From assembly GCF_001189955.1 (NCBI RefSeq), contig NZ_LFLT01000002.1, positions 186,001 through 250,000 on the forward strand: a stretch of 64,000 nt of DNA, in the 5' to 3' direction. A program made the translations under genes and the position numbers. Below the pieces are notes generated by a model. That model had not been told where the DNA came from and made no database searches. It worked only from the letters and a program-made list of their open reading frames with translations. This document shows, one piece after another, positions 41,611 through 50,239 of the stretch. Numbering within the stretch: position 1 is the stretch's first letter; each line of letters starts with the position of its first letter. This stretch comes from Herbaspirillum chlorophenolicum. Its GTDB lineage: Bacteria; Pseudomonadota; Gammaproteobacteria; Burkholderiales; Burkholderiaceae_D.

Positions 41611-42921
41611 ATGAAATCCATCAAAGTAGGTTTGCTCGGCATCGGCACCGTGGGTTCCGGTACTTTCAATGTTCTCAAGCGCAACCAGGAAGAGATTGCG
41701 GGCCGCGCCGGCCGGGGCATTGAAATTACCATGGTGGCCGATCTCAACACCGAGCGCGCCACCGAACTGACCAATGGAGAAGTCAAGGTTGTCAACGACG
41801 CCAACCTGGTGGTGAACGCCCCTGACATCGACATCGTCATCGAGCTGATCGGCGGCTACGGCATCGCCAAGGACCTGGTCCTGAAGGCGATTGCCAACGG
41901 CAAGCACGTGGTCACCGCCAACAAGGCGCTGATCGCCACGCACGGCAACGAGATCTTCAAGGCGGCGCAAGAAAAGGGCGTGATGGTCGCGTTCGAAGCG
42001 GCCGTGGCCGGCGGCATCCCCATCATCAAGGCGCTGCGCGAAGGCCTGACCGCCAACCGCATCCAGTGGATCGCCGGCATCATCAACGGCACCACCAACT
42101 TCATTCTGTCCGAGATGCGCGACAAGGGCCTGGACTTCGACGTGGTGCTCAAGGAAGCGCAACGCCTGGGCTACGCCGAAGCCGACCCGACCTTCGATAT
42201 CGAAGGCGTGGACGCCGCCCACAAGCTGACCATCATGGCTTCGATCGCCTTCGGTATTCCGGTGCAGTTCGGCAAAGCGCACGTGGAAGGCATCACCAAG
42301 CTGCAGGCCAGCGACATCACCTACGCCGAGCAACTGGGCTACCGCATCAAGCTGCTGGGCATCACGCGCCAGACCGAGAAGGGCATCGAACTGCGCGTGC
42401 ACCCGACGCTGATCCCGGCACAGCGCCTGATTGCCAATGTCGAAGGTGCGATGAACGCAGTGGTGGTGCGCGGCGACGCCGTCGGCGAGACCCTGTACTA
42501 CGGCAAGGGCGCCGGCGCCGAGCCGACCGCTTCGGCGGTCATCGCCGATCTGGTCGACATCACCCGCCTGGCCACTGCCGATCCGGAACACCGCGTGCCT
42601 TACCTGGCGTTCCAGCCCGGCGCCATGGCCGATACTCCGGTGCTGCCGATGGCCGAGGTCACCACCAGCTACTACCTGCGCATGCGCGTGGCCGACAAGC
42701 CGGGCGTGCTGGCCGACGTTACCCGCATCCTGGCGGACTCGTCGATTTCGATCGATGCCATGCTGCAGAAGGAGCCTGCCGAAGGCGAGCAGCAGACCGA
42801 CATCATCATGCTGACCCACCAGACCCAGGAAAAGAACATCGAGGCGGCCATCGCCAAGATTGAAGCGCTGGAGACTATCGTCGGCAAGACCACCAAGATC
42901 CGTCTGGAAGAGCTGAACTGA
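41611..42921 (+). CDS. hom: Homoserine dehydrogenase
   Basis: This 436-residue enzyme reduces aspartate semialdehyde to homoserine on the way to threonine and methionine. It has the NAD(P) motif GIGTVGSG near residue 10, the catalytic region GGIPIIKALREGLTANRIQWIAGIINGTTNFIL, and a C-terminal ACT domain (residues about 350-425, MRVADKPGVLADVTRILADSSISI) that usually senses threonine. It is the monofunctional form, not fused to aspartokinase. In related genomes thrC follows directly; here about 5.9 kb intervene. Confidence 0.97.
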   Translation: MKSIKVGLLGIGTVGSGTFNVLKRNQEEIAGRAGRGIEITMVADLNTERATELTNGEVKVVNDANLVVNAPDIDIVIELIGGYGIAKDLVLKAIANGKHVVTANKALIATHGNEIFKAAQEKGVMVAFEAAVAGGIPIIKALREGLTANRIQWIAGIINGTTNFILSEMRDKGLDFDVVLKEAQRLGYAEADPTFDIEGVDAAHKLTIMASIAFGIPVQFGKAHVEGITKLQASDITYAEQLGYRIKLLGITRQTEKGIELRVHPTLIPAQRLIANVEGAMNAVVVRGDAVGETLYYGKGAGAEPTASAVIADLVDITRLATADPEHRVPYLAFQPGAMADTPVLPMAEVTTSYYLRMRVADKPGVLADVTRILADSSISIDAMLQKEPAEGEQQTDIIMLTHQTQEKNIEAAIAKIEALETIVGKTTKIRLEELN

Positions 42922-43006: not shown

Positions 43007-43447
43007 TTACTTCTTCTTGATCTCGTAGCCGCACACTGCTTGCATCATGGCATCACCGACCGACATCGGCTTGGGTTTGGTGAACTCCATGCCCTTGAGT
43101 GCGTCGGAATGGTCGCGCTTGTCGCCCTTGCCGTCGTTCTCGGCGAAGATGATCTCACGCACCAGCTTCATGGTGCCGGCCTTGCAGTTGTACTGGTGCA
43201 AATCCTTGTAGGACTTCAGGCTGGGGAAGCTGGTGTCGCCGGTGTTGGGACGGGCTTCCTTGAAATTCCACATCGACCATGCTTCACGAATGCCGCCGCT
43301 TTCAACGATGGAATCGGTATCGACCAGCAGCGTCGACTGGTCCGAATCCCCCAGCGATTGCCAGTTTTCCGCGTGCGCCGGGGCGCCAGCCAGCAAGGCG
43401 CCGAATGCACCGGAGATCGCCAGCAAGGTCTTGATCTTTTGTTTCAT
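43007..43447 (-). CDS. Secreted surface-adhesin-E-like protein
   Basis: A 146-residue protein with a clear signal peptide cleaved after APAHA (about residue 26). The mature part (NWQSLGDSDQSTLLVDTDSIVESGGIREAWSMWNFKEA, with Cys near residues 87 and 139) fits the pattern of the Haemophilus protein-E family (Adhesin_E domain). In Haemophilus it binds host proteins, but most environmental members have unknown roles. AAGGATGG lies before the ATG. It follows the CsgG/LpoB-fold gene after 198 bases. Confidence 0.75.
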   Translation of the reverse strand: MKQKIKTLLAISGAFGALLAGAPAHAENWQSLGDSDQSTLLVDTDSIVESGGIREAWSMWNFKEARPNTGDTSFPSLKSYKDLHQYNCKAGTMKLVREIIFAENDGKGDKRDHSDALKGMEFTKPKPMSVGDAMMQAVCGYEIKKK

Positions 43448-43645: not shown

Positions 43646-44503
43646 TCACTTGAAGACCACGGTGCGCTCTTCCTGCGCCGATGCGCCGGCCGGTCCCGCA
43701 TTGCGCGATGCGCGGGAAGCGCGTGTGGAGGCGGCCGGGTTGAATTGCGCCTCCATTTCGCTGGCCACGGCATCGCCCAGCGAGCGCGAGACCTCCTGCA
43801 TTACCTTGCTCTTGTTGAGCGCGATCCGGGTTCCGGCGGAATTGGCCAGGCGCGTGTCAGAACCTTCGCCCATGGCCGAGAAGGCAGCCTTGATTTCATA
43901 GGTCTTGGTGTTGATCAGCGAGAACTCGCCCACCAGTTCCAGCGCCAGCGAGAACGACACCGCATTGGATCCCTGGATGGGATTGGTTTCCTGGCGGAAG
44001 TCGATATTGTTGATGCTGCCGAACAGCACATAGTCCGCGCCGGGGTAATAGCCTTGCTTGATGCGGGCGATGATGTCGTACAGTTTTTCCGTGTTTTGCT
44101 GCGTCCACGGCTTGCCTTGCACCAAACGGTATGAGCCGGACTTGAGCAGTTCCCCCTTGATGTCGGCGGTAAATTTGCGCAGTTCGCCGCGGCTGATGAC
44201 GGTGATGCTGCCCGAGGCCGCCACGACCGAGCTTTCACCGCGGCTCGACGAGCGCTCGGAGGCTGAGCCCGAGGAGCTGTTGGCCGAATCGCGGAACTGG
44301 CCGCTGGAAGATGAGCGGTTGTCGTGCTTCTCGCGCGCTTCGTAGTATTGGAAATACTCCTTCACTTGCTCTTCATACGACAGGTCGGTGACGGCGATCT
44401 TGGGCAGGTTCTGGGCCACGGCTGCCGAAGAGGCCAGCACGGAGCAGGCCAGGCAGCCGATCGCGGAAGCAGTGCGCAAGGCGCGCAGGATGGATGGGTG
44501 CAT
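43646..44503 (-). CDS. Periplasmic CsgG/LpoB-fold protein, divergent
   Basis: A 285-residue protein with a signal peptide (cleavage near AAVAQ) and no lipobox. The mature N-terminus PKIAVTDLSYEEQVKEYF resembles the first strand of CsgG/LpoB-type domains. A Ser/Arg-rich insert (residues about 58-95) interrupts the fold, which resumes with RKFTADIKGELLKSGSYRLVQG and GADYVLFGSINNIDF, parallel to GAQYRIEGNITSI in the LpoB-like protein coded upstream. The C-terminus is Ala/Arg-rich. It lies 21 bases after lpoB. I infer a soluble partner or paralogue of LpoB; function is unknown. Confidence 0.7.
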   Translation of the reverse strand: MHPSILRALRTASAIGCLACSVLASSAAVAQNLPKIAVTDLSYEEQVKEYFQYYEAREKHDNRSSSSGQFRDSANSSSGSASERSSSRGESSVVAASGSITVISRGELRKFTADIKGELLKSGSYRLVQGKPWTQQNTEKLYDIIARIKQGYYPGADYVLFGSINNIDFRQETNPIQGSNAVSFSLALELVGEFSLINTKTYEIKAAFSAMGEGSDTRLANSAGTRIALNKSKVMQEVSRSLGDAVASEMEAQFNPAASTRASRASRNAGPAGASAQEERTVVFK

Positions 44504-44524
44504 GAGAGTTCCCTGAAGCGGTGG

Positions 44525-45136
44525 TCAGCGGCGCGAGGTCTTGCGGATTTCCTTCTCGTCGGCCCATTCGATGGTGCCGGCCTCGATGTCGGTCATGATC
44601 AGGCTGAACTTGTAATAGACATCCTTGACATCGCCGCCGCGCTTGACGATGGAAGTGATGTTGCCTTCGATGCGATATTGCGCGCCTTGCATCTTGCCGA
44701 CCTTGGCGGTAGCCGATTTCTTGTACAGGCCGCTGTTGTTCTGGCGGGTCAGTTCGTCGGTCTGGTTCTGCATGGCGTCGATATCGGTGGCGAAGCGCAT
44801 GGTGCCGCTCTTGATCAGTTGAGTGCGGATCGAATCGCTGATGGAGCGCGTATCGATGTATTCGCTGGTCTTGTTCTTGACGTCGGCGAAGGTGACCAGC
44901 GGCTTGCTCTTGTAGCCGCTGGCCGATTGCGCCAGCGAGCGCGCCATCGATTCGGCGATGGTTTGCAGGTCGGTCGAGCCGAATTCATTGGTGACTTGCT
45001 CCACGGCTTTGGCGTCGCCGTACTGGACGTTGCTGCCGACGGTCGGCGTGCCGGGCGTGGCGCAGCCGAACAGGGTGGCGCACAAGGCGCACAGGGCCGT
45101 GTAGCGAAGCTGGTGGGAGTGGAGGATGGCGTACAT
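44525..45136 (-). CDS. lpoB: LpoB-like lipoprotein, penicillin-binding-protein activator family
   Basis: From the ATG at 45136 (AAGGAA upstream) the product has 203 residues and is a lipoprotein: lipobox LFGC with Cys25. The mature domain matches LpoB/YcfM (LVTFADVKNKTSEYIDTRSISDSIRTQLIKSGTMRFA, then GAQYRIEGNITSIVKRGGDVKDVYYKFSLIMTDIEAGTIEWADEKEIRK). In E. coli outer-membrane LpoB reaches through peptidoglycan to activate PBP1b. Here the long Pro-rich linker of enteric LpoB is absent. The upstream open frame of 32 codons is not conserved. Partner upstream is a YcfL-like protein, as in enterics. Confidence 0.88.
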   Translation of the reverse strand: MYAILHSHQLRYTALCALCATLFGCATPGTPTVGSNVQYGDAKAVEQVTNEFGSTDLQTIAESMARSLAQSASGYKSKPLVTFADVKNKTSEYIDTRSISDSIRTQLIKSGTMRFATDIDAMQNQTDELTRQNNSGLYKKSATAKVGKMQGAQYRIEGNITSIVKRGGDVKDVYYKFSLIMTDIEAGTIEWADEKEIRKTSRR

Positions 45137-45209
45137 AGGGTATTTCCTTTGGAATGGCGAATAAGGGTGTTCTGTGGGGCGAGAATGCCGCCCCAGCCGT
45201 TTCAGCAGG

Positions 45210-45623
45210 TCATGGGCTGTTGCCGGAAGCACTGGGCTGGCTCAGCGGACGGTTATCGGTGGCGCTGAACTGGATCTTGAAGTCGCGCGCCTTGGTGGTC
45301 GGCGCGACAATCTGCAGCGTCAGTTTTTGCGCGCCGTGCAGCAGCACCGGTTTCCAGGCTTCGTCGTCCCATACCTGGAAACCGGACTCATCCAGCCATT
45401 GCACCCGGTAATAGGCGCTTTGCTGGCGGGTGTCGAGATTGGAGAGTTCGGCCTGTATCCGGAGCAGGCCGTTCTGTTCGCGCATGCGCAAACCGGTGAA
45501 TTGCAGCGAGGCCGGCTCGCCCATGGTTTCGATCTTGGATGCGATGGTCTGGCCTACGGCCGGTGGCGCAGCAACCAGCGCGCAGGATGCTGCCAGCACG
45601 ATGTTGCGTAAAAAAAATTGCAT
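45210..45623 (-). CDS. YcfL family protein (DUF1425)
   Basis: A 137-residue exported protein with an N-terminal signal peptide; a possible but marginal lipobox involves Cys14. The mature domain fits DUF1425: LQFTGLRMREQNGLLRIQAELSNLDTRQQSAYYRVQWLDESGFQVWDDEAWKPVLLHGAQKLTLQIVAPTTKARDFKIQF, a predicted beta-sandwich. E. coli ycfL is likewise next to lpoB (ycfM), and its role is unknown. It lies 73 bases before lpoB and 48 bases after the COG3014 gene. Confidence 0.88.
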   Translation of the reverse strand: MQFFLRNIVLAASCALVAAPPAVGQTIASKIETMGEPASLQFTGLRMREQNGLLRIQAELSNLDTRQQSAYYRVQWLDESGFQVWDDEAWKPVLLHGAQKLTLQIVAPTTKARDFKIQFSATDNRPLSQPSASGNSP

Positions 45624-45671
45624 CTGGATTCTCCGATGTGTCGATGTCGTGATGGCGTTGCCGGATGGCCG

Positions 45672-47282
45672 TTATTCGTTGGCCGACGCCGAGACCGGCA
45701 CGATGGCCTTCTTCTTGGCGGCGGCGCTGGCCAGCGCCTTTTCTTTGGCCGCCGCAGCCGCTTTGGCGGCATTGTTCGGCGCGGCTTTCTTGCCGCCCTT
45801 GGCGACCTTGGCCGGCGGCGTGTCCGGGGCGGCCAGGGCCAATGCGGCTTTTTGTTCGTCGAAAGGCGTCTGGGCGAGATAGAGCGACGGCCCGGAGGTG
45901 CGCATGGTCACCACGGCGTAATTGCCGGAGAGCTTCACTTCCCGTGTCAGTTGTCCGGCGCCGGACAGCAGGCTGATGGTGTGGGCGCCGACCGGCAGCT
46001 TGACCCGTGCCACCGAGAAGAAGCCAGGCAGGGTGCGCCAGGTACGTTCATCGGCCACTTCCGTCACTACCGTGCCGACCTTGGCCGCCAGGCTCAGCAG
46101 CGAGCCGAAGGCGCCCATCGAACCGGCGTTGTCGTCGATGGCTTTCTGTGCGACGCCACGCGTGATGGCGCGCACCGAGGAGCGCGCGATGATGCCGGGC
46201 ATTTCGTCGGAAAGCGCCTTGCGCGCCATCTGGTCGACGCTGGTCAGCAGGGCGACCGGTGCGGATTGGCCGTCGATGTTGATGGCAGACGGCACCATCG
46301 AGCTGTCCGCGGCGCGGATCACCGGCCAGGAAATCGGCGTGGCGATGATGGACAAACCACTGCGTCCCGGAATCGGCAGCATGATGGGCAGGGTCATGGA
46401 CGTGATGGCCGGGGCGCTGCCCGACTCGATCACGATCAGCGTATCCACCAGCTTGGGCGAGCGCGCGCGTACGCGGCCGTCCAGTCCCTTGAGCCCGTCT
46501 TCCAGCACCGGCTCGCCAGGGCGCATCTCGATTGCCTTGCGGTAGCCTGCCGCAGCCAGCGAAGGCTCGCCCAGGCTTTCATAGACGAAGCCGGCCAGGT
46601 AGTTGGCGATCGCGGATTCATAGGAATTCTTCAGCGCCTGCACTTGCGGGTCGGTCAGGGTCTCGACCGGATAGCCGTTGAGTTCCTTGAAGGAGGTCGT
46701 CTTCAGCCCCTTGGATTCCGCGCTGCCTTTGGCTTCTTCCAGTTCCTTGCTGCGGAACTCGGCGATGATGGCCTCGCGCTCGTGCATCTTCTTGATCTCG
46801 GTACGCGCCGAATCCCAGTCGCCGATGGCCAGATGGTCCAGCGCCAGCCGCAGGTTGATGAACGTCTTTTCGTAATCGCGGCCGTCATAGCGGCGCGTGG
46901 TGTCGTTGAGCACGAAGGAGCCGATATCGCCGAACAATTTGGACGGATCGGTCTTGGCCTGGTCTTCCCAGCCGCGCACTTTCTCGTCGGCGGCCAGCCA
47001 GCTTTCCTTGCTGCTCTCGTAGGAACCCTTCATGCGCAGCAGCTCGCCCTTCTCCATGAAGTAGAGCAAGTCCTTCTCTTTGTCGGGATTCTGCTGTTCG
47101 AGCGCTTGCAGCGCGATGTCGGGATTGCCGCCTTGCATGGCGCCGACAGTGCTGCTGGCCTTGTTGTCGTAGCCCTGGGTGGCGCAACCGGCAATCAGTC
47201 CTGCTGCCATGGCCCCCGCACACAGCCGTTTGCCCAAATAGAGGGCGGCAGTTGCCCTCCGGTAGTTTTGCTTGTTTTTCAT
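45672..47282 (-). CDS. COG3014-type lipoprotein with helical repeats
   Basis: A 536-residue lipoprotein: basic N-terminus, hydrophobic stretch and lipobox LIAGC with Cys33. Residues about 45-270 are helical with TPR-like spacing (NPDIALQALEQQNPDKEKDLLYFMEKGELLRMKGSYESSKESWLAAD; ANYLAGFVYESLGEPSLAAAGYRKAIEMRPGEP). Then follows a domain with VDTLIVIESGSAPAITSMTLPIMLP. The C-terminal 60 residues are Ala/Lys-rich. I recognise it as the uncharacterised COG3014 family, which I recall near LpoB/YcfL genes. It leads a four-gene minus-strand unit. Confidence 0.8.
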   Translation of the reverse strand: MKNKQNYRRATAALYLGKRLCAGAMAAGLIAGCATQGYDNKASSTVGAMQGGNPDIALQALEQQNPDKEKDLLYFMEKGELLRMKGSYESSKESWLAADEKVRGWEDQAKTDPSKLFGDIGSFVLNDTTRRYDGRDYEKTFINLRLALDHLAIGDWDSARTEIKKMHEREAIIAEFRSKELEEAKGSAESKGLKTTSFKELNGYPVETLTDPQVQALKNSYESAIANYLAGFVYESLGEPSLAAAGYRKAIEMRPGEPVLEDGLKGLDGRVRARSPKLVDTLIVIESGSAPAITSMTLPIMLPIPGRSGLSIIATPISWPVIRAADSSMVPSAINIDGQSAPVALLTSVDQMARKALSDEMPGIIARSSVRAITRGVAQKAIDDNAGSMGAFGSLLSLAAKVGTVVTEVADERTWRTLPGFFSVARVKLPVGAHTISLLSGAGQLTREVKLSGNYAVVTMRTSGPSLYLAQTPFDEQKAALALAAPDTPPAKVAKGGKKAAPNNAAKAAAAAKEKALASAAAKKKAIVPVSASANE

Positions 47283-47502
47283 GATGTGTTTCTCCCCGGA
47301 ATTACCTGCACCCTCAGCCTTGCATGTCTCCTGACAATTGCTTTTGTGAAAAAGCGAGCCGGTTGAGTGTTGAGCAAGAGAAAATTCTAGAGAAACGCAA
47401 CAGAAAAAGCCTCATCCGTTTGAATGAGAAAGTGAAATGTTCTATCCTCGGAGCGGGGTAGGCCAATCAAGTCGCCATTGTGAGCGGCACGGGGATAAAA
47501 CA
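47283..47502. promoter_or_regulatory. Divergent region between the envelope module and luxR-type gene
   Basis: A 220-base gap with the divergent starts of the COG3014 gene (-) and the LuxR-type regulator (+). The middle is AT-rich. No convincing -35/-10 pair or operator was identified, but shared control by the regulator is possible. Confidence 0.45.
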
Positions 47503-48642
47503 ATGAAAACCGCCAATCAGGAACGGCAGTTCGATCATCTGGTCGGGCTGATTTACGAGTCGGTGCACAATGTCGGGCAACTGGTGCCGGCCATGGAGTT
47601 GATGTGCGATGAGCTTGGCGCGATCGCCGGACATTACCTCCACATGGATATGTCGAGCAGGGAAGTGTTCAGCTCAGTCATCAGCGATCCTGCATTCAAC
47701 GCGGCCGATGCCGAATACCGGACTTATTACAACAGTGTCGACGAGCGTCTGCCGTGGGTCGCCACCGGCGCCGTCGGCGAGTGGCGCGCGGACTACGAGC
47801 GCTTCGACGAAGGCTTCGTTCGCCGCAGCGAGATCTATAACGATTTCCTGTTCAAGTACGGCGCACGCCACATGGTCCTCGGCCGCATCGGCGGCGAGGC
47901 TTCGGAGAATGAAATACTGTCGTTCCTGCGTCCGGTCGGCGCCGAGCAATACGATGCGGATGATCTCCAGTTCCTGACGCGCATCACCGGGCACATGATC
48001 CGCTCCTCCATGCTGCGGCGGCGCCTGCGGGCTCTGGAAAGCCAGCAGCAGGCCGACCAGACCCTGTTGCAATACTTTCCTTACGGTACGGTATGGGTCG
48101 ATGCTGCCTGCCGCGTGGTGTCGTTCAACAATGTCGCGGCAGACATGCTGGCCGGCGCCGATGGCATTTGCGTGAAAGCGCAGCGGTTGCGCATGGCCGA
48201 CCCCGGCGCCGATTGCATGCTGGCTACCGCCATCGGGCAGGCCACCGGCGCCGAAGGCCGGCGCGGGCAATGGTTTGCTGCCCGCCGCGAGCGGGACGGG
48301 CAGCCGCTGGTCGTGTCGGTCATCCCGGCGCAGCCGGATCGCCAGACCGAACTTGCCAATAGCGGCGGGCCGCTGGCCCTGGTGATCCTGCAGGACATGA
48401 GCCGGCAGCATCTGCCGCGCAGCGCCATATTGCGCAAGATGTTCGGTTTGACGCCGGCCGAAGCCCGGTTGGCCGAAGCGCTGCTTGATAACGAGACTAT
48501 CGAAAGTTACGCGCAAAAAGCCAGTGTCAGCCGCAATACGGTGCGCACCCATATGGCCAGTTTGTTCTCCAAGACAGGCACGCGGCGCCAGGCGGAACTC
48601 TTGCGTATCCTGATGATGGCTGAGCCGCCGATCCATATCTGA
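47503..48642 (+). CDS. LuxR-family transcriptional regulator
   Basis: A 380-residue protein from MKTANQ. The N-terminal 200 residues form a sensor-like region (HLVGLIYESVHNVGQLVPAMELMCDELGA...) with no recognisable receiver aspartate pattern. A PAS-like middle part follows (GTVWVDAACRVVSFNNVAADML). The C-terminal helix-turn-helix (FGLTPAEARLAEALLDNETIESYAQKASVSRNTVRTHMASLFSKTG) is clearly LuxR/NarL type. The signal is unknown. It is divergent from the lipoprotein module and upstream of thrC. The open frame reaches 22 codons further upstream, so the start is tentative. Confidence 0.85.
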   Translation: MKTANQERQFDHLVGLIYESVHNVGQLVPAMELMCDELGAIAGHYLHMDMSSREVFSSVISDPAFNAADAEYRTYYNSVDERLPWVATGAVGEWRADYERFDEGFVRRSEIYNDFLFKYGARHMVLGRIGGEASENEILSFLRPVGAEQYDADDLQFLTRITGHMIRSSMLRRRLRALESQQQADQTLLQYFPYGTVWVDAACRVVSFNNVAADMLAGADGICVKAQRLRMADPGADCMLATAIGQATGAEGRRGQWFAARRERDGQPLVVSVIPAQPDRQTELANSGGPLALVILQDMSRQHLPRSAILRKMFGLTPAEARLAEALLDNETIESYAQKASVSRNTVRTHMASLFSKTGTRRQAELLRILMMAEPPIHI

Positions 48643-48778: not shown

Positions 48779-50239
48779 ATGCAATACGTATCCACTCGCG
48801 GTCATTCTGCTACTCCTTCCTTTTCTGAAATCCTGCTGGGCGGCCTGGCGCCGGATGGCGGCTTGTACTTGCCGCGCGAATATCCGCAAGTGAGCAATGC
48901 CGAGCTGGACCAGTGGCGCAAACTCTCCTACGCCGACCTGGCGTTTGAAGTGCTGAAGAAATTCGCCACCGACATTCCCGAGGCAGACCTGAAAGCCCTG
49001 GCGCACAAGACCTATACCGCCGATACCTACCGCAACACCCACGCCGGTGAAGACGCATCGCAGATCACTCCGCTGCGCACGCTGGAAGACAAGGATGGCA
49101 AGAAGCTGGTGCTGCAAGGCTTGTCCAACGGCCCGACCCTGGCCTTCAAGGACATGGCCATGCAATTGCTGGGCAACCTGTTCGAATACGCGCTGGCCAA
49201 GAAGGGCGCGGAACTGAATATCGTCGGCGCCACCTCGGGCGACACCGGCAGCGCCGCTGAATATGCGATGCGCGGCAAGCAGGGCATCCGCGTGTTCATG
49301 CTGTCGCCGCACAAGAAGATGAGCGCCTTCCAGACCGCGCAGATGTTCAGCCTGCAGGACCCCAACATCTTCAACATCGCCATCGAAGGCGTGTTCGACG
49401 ATTGCCAGGACATCGTCAAGGCGATTTCCAACGACCTGGAATACAAGGCCGCCAAGAAGATCGGCACCGTCAACTCGATCAACTGGGCGCGCGTCGTGGC
49501 GCAGGTGGTGTACTACTTCCGCGGTTACCTGGCGGCGACCACCTCGAATGAACAGAAGGTCTCGTTCACGGTTCCATCCGGCAACTTCGGCAATATCTGC
49601 GCCGGCCACATCGCGCGCATGATGGGTCTGCCGATCGACAAGCTGGTGGTGGCCACCAACGAGAACGACGTGCTCGACGAGTTTTTCCGCACCGGCGTCT
49701 ACCGTGTGCGCAAGTCGGCCGAGACCTACCACACCAGCAGCCCCAGCATGGACATCAGCAAGGCCTCGAACTTCGAGCGCTTCATCTACGACCTGCTGGG
49801 CCGCGACAGCGATCGCGTCAAGGCGCTGTTCCACAAGGTCGAGACCGCCGGCGGCTTCGACCTGACCGGCAAGCCCGGCAGCGATGGCAACGAATTCACC
49901 AGCGTGATCAAGTACGGTTTTGCATCCGGAAAGTCGACCCATGCCGACCGCCTGGACACCATCCGCTTTGCGGAAGAGCGTTACGGCATCACGGTCGATA
50001 CCCACACCGCCGACGGCATCAAGGTGGCGCGCGAGAACCTGGCGCAGGGCGTGACCATGATCGTGCTGGAAACCGCCTTGCCGGCCAAGTTCAACGAAAC
50101 CATCCGCGAAGCGCTGGGCCGCGACGCCGACCGTCCGGCCGGGTTCGAGAACATCGAGGCGCTGCCGCAGCGCTTCGAAGTCATGCCGGCCGACGCCGCC
50201 AGCGTCAAGAATTTCGTGGCGCAGCACACCGGCCTGTAA
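48779..50239 (+). CDS. thrC: Threonine synthase
   Basis: Threonine synthase (486 residues) converts O-phosphohomoserine to threonine with PLP. It has the class I N-terminus (MQYVSTRGHSATPSFSEILLGGLAPDGGLYLPREYP), the Schiff-base Lys in NGPTLAFKDMAMQLLGNLFEY, and the phosphate-cup stretch GATSGDTGSAAEYAMRG. Length fits the long proteobacterial form. It acts one step (via homoserine kinase) after Hom, coded 5.9 kb upstream. Confidence 0.97.
   Translation: MQYVSTRGHSATPSFSEILLGGLAPDGGLYLPREYPQVSNAELDQWRKLSYADLAFEVLKKFATDIPEADLKALAHKTYTADTYRNTHAGEDASQITPLRTLEDKDGKKLVLQGLSNGPTLAFKDMAMQLLGNLFEYALAKKGAELNIVGATSGDTGSAAEYAMRGKQGIRVFMLSPHKKMSAFQTAQMFSLQDPNIFNIAIEGVFDDCQDIVKAISNDLEYKAAKKIGTVNSINWARVVAQVVYYFRGYLAATTSNEQKVSFTVPSGNFGNICAGHIARMMGLPIDKLVVATNENDVLDEFFRTGVYRVRKSAETYHTSSPSMDISKASNFERFIYDLLGRDSDRVKALFHKVETAGGFDLTGKPGSDGNEFTSVIKYGFASGKSTHADRLDTIRFAEERYGITVDTHTADGIKVARENLAQGVTMIVLETALPAKFNETIREALGRDADRPAGFENIEALPQRFEVMPADAASVKNFVAQHTGL

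Follow-up and report, generated by a model that had tools for sequence, protein, structure and literature searches.

The lipoprotein LpoB is a textbook case of outer-membrane control over cell-wall synthesis. In Escherichia coli, its partner is the penicillin-binding protein (PBP) PBP1b, which carries a UB2H domain (PMC3060616); according to Typas et al., the two are confined to enterobacteria when stringent cut-offs are applied and evolved newly together, LpoB with UB2H (PMC3060616). Pseudomonas aeruginosa has a different activator, LpoP (PMC7267771). A gene of the LpoB family also lies in the window analyzed here, a stretch of 64,000 nucleotides from Herbaspirillum chlorophenolicum (contig NZ_LFLT01000002.1, positions 186,001 to 250,000), where it is the third of four adjacent genes that encode, in order of transcription, a COG3014-type lipoprotein, a YcfL family protein, LpoB, and a protein that we call P4. 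The label COG3014 comes from an earlier reading of the sequence, not from a match to a curated COG model. The E. coli locus shares the order of ycfL and lpoB with the window; however, it has neither COG3014 nor P4, and its LpoB carries a long Pro-rich linker.

In Campylobacter jejuni, the operon cj0089-cj0090-cj0091 encodes a tetratricopeptide repeat (TPR) lipoprotein, a small lipoprotein, and Cj0091 in the same order; the three genes are co-transcribed and followed by a stem-loop, and their reported role is in adherence and chicken colonization (PMC3100323). We compared YcfL and Cj0090 directly (structure 4gio, 3e-6), whereas Cj0089 and Cj0091 were likened to the window proteins by description. 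The Helicobacter protein HP1457, orthologous to Cj0091, has been called an LpoB homologue, and H. pylori HP0018 has been called a Cj0089 homologue (PMC11394524), so its likeness to the window protein runs through Cj0089 only. Homologues of hp0018 and hp1457 adjoin in many enterohepatic Helicobacter species, whereas hp0018 in H. pylori forms an operon by itself, and the available portion of that paper describes no P4 with HP0018 or HP1457 (PMC11394524). Deletion of HP0018 changes cell shape and vesiculation, AmiA and MltD co-purify with it as potential partners, and Rosinke et al. proposed a link to peptidoglycan for HP0018 together with HP1457 (PMC11394524). A preliminary description of the window, made from its sequence, had treated YcfL and COG3014 as families without an assigned function; these families are not entirely unstudied, as a related operon has been characterized in Campylobacter and HP0018 in Helicobacter.

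In the literature searched, mostly non-subscription papers, we found no description of the four-gene form, of the P4 branch, or of a general rule linking LpoB to COG3014, and the term COG3014 itself was not found; five papers mention YcfL together with LpoB. We regard the module as a new form of a type of system that is known but little understood, and we infer its mechanism below.

A conserved four-gene unit and its proteins

The four-gene block occupies positions 43646-47282, with intergenic gaps of 48, 73, and 21 bases (Table 1). The preliminary description of four adjacent minus-strand genes with small gaps was borne out, as all open reading frames were found where it had placed them, and so was its claim of signal peptides in all four proteins and clear lipoboxes in two. 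YcfL and P4 have signal-peptide-like N-termini that end at small-residue sites (judged by eye and with a simple pattern); no convincing lipobox was found in either, and the simple pattern marks weak Cys sites inside both. Promoter-like sites were at chance level (1 found, 1.5 expected), and there were 11 terminator-like sites against 6.3 expected, none of them on the minus strand after P4.

Their arrangement as a unit is real and widely conserved. A P4 profile was run against 398 sampled genomes from the phylum, with at most six candidates scored per genome, so that absences are soft; it was found in 14 genomes, including that of the window. At 12 of the 13 other P4 loci, which belong to other families of the phylum, the full order COG3014-YcfL-LpoB-P4 was present. 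In the exception, genome G200, the LpoB-P4 pair and COG3014 lie on different contigs, G200:C133 and G200:C137, and YcfL was not found, which represents either a split module or a draft-genome artefact; several P4-bearing genomes, G168, G200, and G220, are incomplete drafts. Named genomes contributed 12 COG3014 loci, one of which (L022) is a 4-kb fragment; all four genes stood in order at 10 of the other 11. At locus L015, the contig ends inside P4. Within a Pseudomonas-like genus (g52; this label, like those of the enterobacterial-type family f31 and the Vibrio-like family f34 below, is a reading from gene content and sizes), P4 occurred in 83 of 159 genomes, and the gene order was the same at all six inspected loci that lay outside the profile training. 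Genome G144 has a strong COG3014, YcfL, and LpoB set, yet no P4 match. Because the order is conserved at distant loci, the arrangement is more than chance; together with joint presence or absence in Herbaspirillum (see below), this agrees with the earlier proposal of a single unit.

P4 matched PF13036, the Pfam family of LpoB, with 24.8 bits (gathering score 22.3), the match being limited to profile positions 48-119; at E ≤0.01, PF13036 was matched by 8 of 11 aligned P4 proteins. Profile-profile comparison gave a probability of 95% against a mixed LpoB alignment and 52% against a close LpoB alignment. Both lines are independent of our own LpoB profile, which takes in P4 proteins and whose P4 scores, being circular, were not used. 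P4 is not an LpoB equivalog (TIGR02722: 13.5 bits, cut-off 110.55). AlphaFold2, run with an 11-row alignment, predicted the succession strand-helix-helix-strand-helix-three long strands-helix, with a predicted local distance difference test (pLDDT) score of about 75-85 in the core, a mean of 61, and values <50 in a Ser-rich stretch. Based on this model, P4 is predicted to share the CsgG/TolB-N/PelC fold (VIA-align Z about 9-13 over 114-175 residues; Foldseek E 2e-6), with FlgT (Z 12.8), CsgG (11.7), PelC (11.0), and the TraT decamer (9.5) among its structural neighbors, as well as the TolB N-domain, LptE, and PqiC. LpoB was not among the 50 VIA-align entries listed for P4, to which we attach no weight either way, and searches of LpoB, P4, and their profiles against solved structures gave nothing useful.

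Although P4 has a fold in common with CsgG, PelC, FlgT, and TolB-N proteins, it differs from them in its lack of a convincing lipobox, in a Ser-rich insert (residues about 54-102, with 17 Ser among 49 positions) that follows the first strand and helix, and in the lack of a Pfam CsgG match (PF03783: none at E ≤1 for P4, and none at 0.01 among the 11 aligned P4 proteins). The preliminary description had taken P4 for a soluble protein with an insert, the second in the set to have the LpoB/CsgG fold, and the Pfam match, the model, and the Ser count agree with this; the products of the genes at 43646 and 44525 are assigned to the same fold, P4 by its model and LpoB by its Pfam family. In one Pseudomonas-like genome, the P4 gene is followed by three further frames of 123 aa (amino acids) in tandem, each matching the C-terminal portion of P4 (G445:C4:1359802-1361162).

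LpoB is identified by PF13036 (139.1 bits, cut-off 22.3, E 1.3e-40) and TIGR02722 (127.1 bits, cut-off 110.55). We prefer the ATG at 45136 as its start, since the listed alternative, a GTG at 45232, would overlap ycfL. In an alignment with E. coli LpoB, about 11 residues separate the lipid Cys25 from the conserved VxYGDAKAVE motif, which upholds the earlier observation that the long Pro-rich linker is missing. The LpoB proteins aligned from outside f31 likewise have a short spacer in place of that linker, and a VxYGDA.AVE..FGSTDLQ-like motif is common to the LpoB proteins found with P4 and that of f34. Over 23 loci, conservation is highest in LpoB, with a mean identity of 71%, whereas the other three proteins reach 45-53%. 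Mirror-tree correlations among the four proteins at these loci were 0.88-0.97, but we do not count them as proof because shared descent alone can produce them.

For the COG3014-type protein, Pfam yielded TPR matches alone, all under cut-off. Its predicted structure comprises a TPR-like superhelix at about 37-274 and a beta-rich C-terminal region, in a model with a mean pLDDT of 63 that was the single one of five above 50 (the other four, 43-46). Against solved structures, its profile matched designed proteins alone, across one TPR-like stretch. A tandem pair of COG3014 genes lies upstream of YcfL-LpoB-P4 at locus L050 (1888-4885). YcfL matched PF07233 (DUF1425) with 75.5 bits (cut-off 28.3, E 3.1e-21), and its family profile matched the solved structures 3o0l and 4gio; a table in a review lists the latter as Cj0090 of C. 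jejuni (PMC7857515).

LpoB, COG3014, and PBP1b across the phylum

Strong LpoB matches (E ≤1e-15) were present in 79 of the 111 genomes that matched at 1e-3; the weaker matches were mostly partial and were left out. COG3014 was found in 59 genomes, with at most three candidates scored per genome in this first search, so that absences are again soft, and 58 genomes, spanning 18 families, had both; the COG3014 gene lay within 2.5 kb of LpoB in 57 of 59. The one COG3014 genome counted as having no strong LpoB, G160, has a weak LpoB beside its COG3014. Outside f31, the first profile found COG3014 in 58 of 63 strong-LpoB genomes, and closer inspection placed a divergent COG3014 near LpoB in each of the remaining five, making 63 of 63. 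This inspection used a sensitive profile trained on L103-L122 among others; its matches at G126, G330, and G342 are partly circular, whereas those at G141, G212, and G160, and its use at the f31 loci, are independent of training.

In the 16 f31 genomes with LpoB, neither the first search nor the sensitive profile, applied to the surroundings of LpoB, gave a COG3014 match (one stretch ends just after LpoB). PBP1b was present in all 16, and YcfL stood beside LpoB in 13. LpoB and YcfL in f31 and in E. coli were detected with LpoB and YcfL profiles from the same set as the sensitive COG3014 profile. Three f31 LpoB loci, L174 (G157), L180 (G312), and L181 (G335), showed no YcfL in the stretch read, and these genomes have no DUF1425 match genome-wide. 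Overall, YcfL was present in 46 of the 79 strong-LpoB genomes.

The gene order in E. coli K-12 is hinT-ycfL-lpoB-thiK-nagZ-ycfP-ndh, and in an f34 genome it is HIT-COG3014-YcfL-LpoB-APH-UPF0227-oxidoreductase. Because the flanks of the E. coli genes correspond to those of this f34 locus, where COG3014 is retained, the simplest reading is a loss in the E. coli line, and the comparison of gene orders suggests that the hinT-ycfL-lpoB-thiK operon once included COG3014. The preliminary description had suggested that the four genes may be a variant envelope system; we reverse this reading, as the COG3014-LpoB pair is the commoner state in the sample and E. coli looks reduced.

The window's genome encodes four transglycosylase-domain frames: two PBP1a-type synthases, one PBP1c-type synthase, and a 244-aa transglycosylase-only protein. 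PBP1b is absent from it, as the three bifunctional synthases have no UB2H and were classed as PBP1a (two) and PBP1c (one); the search with TIGR02071 described below, which scored two candidates, agrees. A UB2H-like match in this genome was rejected as PBP1b since the protein is Mfd. The UB2H model PF14814 also matched in 36 of 41 relatives, and 6 of the 14 genomes used as controls gave a match as well, Bacillus subtilis included; 35 of 38 matches fell in frames of 1145-1383 aa (the others in frames of 502, 704, and 826), and they span only about positions 1-43 of 85. Because PF14814 matches Mfd and control genomes, a UB2H match alone is no evidence of PBP1b. The suggestion that the system might be PBP-independent goes beyond the evidence, given the two PBP1a-type synthases and the PBP1c-type synthase and the place of V. 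cholerae lpoB in the PBP1b pathway (PMC4063736).

In the sample, we took PBP1b to be TIGR02071 over cut-off, with at most two candidates scored per genome. By this measure, PBP1b occurred in 93 of the 398 genomes and in 29 of the 58 COG3014-LpoB genomes; it was present in 3 of the 14 P4-bearing genomes and was not found over cut-off in the other 11, three of which are drafts <80% complete, and there was no association between P4 and PBP1b either way across the 398 genomes. A protein with an LpoA C-terminal domain was found in all 25 Herbaspirillum genomes, whether they have the module or not, and therefore does not track it; of the 13 P4 genomes besides that of the window, 10 have a match to this family. 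Outside the enterobacterial-type family, LpoB is a partner of COG3014, in the window's genome and probably in several families that have no PBP1b.

We also scanned neighboring genes at 16 of 20 other COG3014-LpoB stretches, where flanking genes were identified in part. A CsgG-family neighbor was found at L103, L104, L114, and L118 (L105 has one just under the PF03783 cut-off), an LPP20-family neighbor at L110, L111, L112, and L119, and DUF6844 at L105, L114, and L118; overall, 9 of the 16 loci have a CsgG- or LPP20-family neighbor. Since a protein of the CsgG/LpoB group or of the LPP20 family recurs as a partner elsewhere, P4 appears to fill a like slot in its own branch. A patatin-like gene lies in the COG3014-LpoB locus L109.

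Possible role of the module

Under the +2 rule, a lipoprotein without Asp after the lipobox Cys is sorted to the outer membrane; neither COG3014 nor LpoB has Asp at that position, and both are therefore expected there. We propose, with a probability of about 45%, that the products of the four genes make up a complex, anchored in the outer membrane, that regulates peptidoglycan enzymes and acts via PBP1a-type synthases or hydrolases. In such a complex, COG3014 would be the scaffold, its TPR superhelix would hold client enzymes, its C-terminal beta part or the Ig-like YcfL may hold partners, and LpoB and its relative P4 would pair as regulatory heads. By analogy with the suggestions made for Helicobacter HP0018, the likeliest clients would be PBP1a-type synthases or else hydrolases of the cell wall, either an amidase or a lytic transglycosylase; in this genome the client cannot be PBP1b, since PBP1b is absent. 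The short linker would keep LpoB near the outer membrane, so that either the client comes to LpoB or contact runs via COG3014. Judging from its position, the LuxR-type regulator probably tunes expression of the module in Herbaspirillum. On this account, we read E. coli LpoB as a reduced form in which COG3014 was lost, a long linker was gained, and PBP1b was kept as the client.

Several observations weigh against this proposal. In published work, Cj0091 is an adhesin and Cj0089 associates with the inner membrane (PMC3100323), which disagrees with a cell-wall role confined to the outer membrane. In V. cholerae, lpoB shows synthetic lethality with both mrcA and lpoA (PMC4063736), so that LpoB there serves PBP1b. 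Outside G000, the genome of the window, the absence of PBP1b is soft, because at most two candidates were scored and this procedure missed the best-scoring synthases of the window's own genome; 14 of the 29 COG3014-LpoB genomes without PBP1b come from a single family (f52), and G181 and G197 have full-length PBP1b matches just under cut-off. Finally, LpoB occurs with PBP1b above chance (45 of 79 genomes overall, 29 of 63 outside f31), although the Fisher tests used here ignore the relatedness of genomes.

A further proposal, which we hold tentatively and consider somewhat more apt to fail than to stand, is that LpoB was originally the regulatory head of a COG3014-scaffolded outer-membrane complex with no need of PBP1b, of which the E. 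coli LpoB-PBP1b pair is a reduced offshoot that lost the scaffold, and that the Herbaspirillum/Pseudomonas branch adds P4 to form a hetero-oligomeric, possibly ring-shaped cell-wall regulator. If LpoB is an old COG3014 partner, the E. coli case would be the exception, and the automatic annotation "PBP activator" would be misleading in genomes where no PBP1b is seen. The true partner of LpoB in the older system would become a directly testable question, and little-studied Campylobacter and Helicobacter lipoproteins would join a common module.

LpoB might instead act in the conventional way, by directly activating a class A PBP, here PBP1a, with the other three genes as accessories. The higher conservation of LpoB, the PBP1a-type synthases in this genome, and the reported work of V. 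cholerae lpoB with PBP1b (PMC4063736) are consistent with this, but none of the synthases in this genome has UB2H, the domain at which LpoB docks (its sole match being Mfd), the linker is shorter than the E. coli mode requires, and the LpoA C-terminal-domain protein found throughout Herbaspirillum is a more obvious helper for PBP1a; we consider direct activation rather unlikely. We also judge it unlikely, and slightly more so, that P4 and LpoB form an outer-membrane ring like those of CsgG, PelC, or FlgT, with COG3014 as gate or plug, for export or a surface structure. Ring-formers are among the best structural neighbors of P4, including FlgT of the flagellar LPHT ring and the TraT decamer, CsgG- or LPP20-family neighbors recur at other loci, Cj0091 is a reported adhesin (PMC3100323), and a conserved export substrate may yet lie among the partly identified flanking genes. 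However, P4 has neither a convincing lipobox nor a PF03783 match, and the core of its model reaches a pLDDT of only 75-85. The same fold also occurs in the TolB N-domain, LptE, and PqiC, none of which is known to us as a ring.

The module is patchily distributed, being present in 7 of 25 Herbaspirillum genomes and, by its P4 gene, in about half of the Pseudomonas-like genus, and one Herbaspirillum genome (G003) has a decayed LuxR regulator after loss. Both observations would suit an accessory cassette for surface or niche adaptation, kept by selection in some habitats and lost in others, with no direct role in the cell wall. The conservation of LpoB across families and the constant gene order speak for a defined machine, and no P4 was found on plasmids, although no search was aimed at integrases or other mobility genes; we regard such a cassette as quite improbable, and the regulatory complex for peptidoglycan enzymes as the preferred account. 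A mobile origin of the module is likewise unsupported by the plasmid search (TBLASTN), in which the single COG3014 match was weak, at 25.5% identity, and came from an Aeromonas record of 4.9 Mb.

Site of the module in Herbaspirillum

The coordinates (Table 1) agree with the preliminary description, in which the block lies in the hom-thrC interval next to a divergently oriented gene of the LuxR type.

Table 1. Features of the module and its surroundings in the window
Feature	Coordinates	Strand	Evidence
COG3014-type TPR lipoprotein, 536 aa	45672..47282	-	lipobox LIAGC; TPR matches below Pfam cut-offs
YcfL family (DUF1425), 137 aa	45210..45623	-	PF07233 match; signal peptide
LpoB family lipoprotein, 203 aa	44525..45136	-	PF13036 and TIGR02722; lipobox LFGC; short linker
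P4, predicted periplasmic LpoB/CsgG-fold protein, 285 aa	43646..44503	-	PF13036 above gathering score; AlphaFold2 model
Divergent LuxR-type regulator gene	47437..48642	+	weak GerE match 0.0057, below cut-off
Adhesin_E-domain protein; neighbor outside module	43007..43447	-	PF16747 1.8e-21
hom	41611-42921	+	
thrC	48779-50239	+	

Based on comparison of this site in 25 Herbaspirillum genomes, the module is an all-or-none block, with LuxR as its linked neighbor there: each of the seven genomes with P4 has the complete set of four, and a LuxR gene lies beside thrC in all seven. The other genomes fall into several states. One (G001) has LuxR and Adhesin_E genes at the hom-thrC site and no module; another (G003) has no module, an Adhesin_E gene, and a LuxR gene in pieces. 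In 11 genomes, hom, Adhesin_E, and thrC are present, with about 240-350 bases from Adhesin_E to thrC; two have Adhesin_E and thrC, with hom not seen within the stretch read, and three have thrC alone in the stretch read. In other families, hom lies close before thrC in four of the five genomes kept as loci. The LuxR gene had no match at loci L017-L019.

The Adhesin_E gene occurs at the hom-thrC site with or without the module (it was not seen in the stretch read of L145-L147), and because it is present in genomes without the module, we did not count it as part of it. At locus L154 (G003:C14), positions 990-1528 hold the fragmented LuxR gene, its middle missing, between Adhesin_E and thrC, which we read as a scar of loss.

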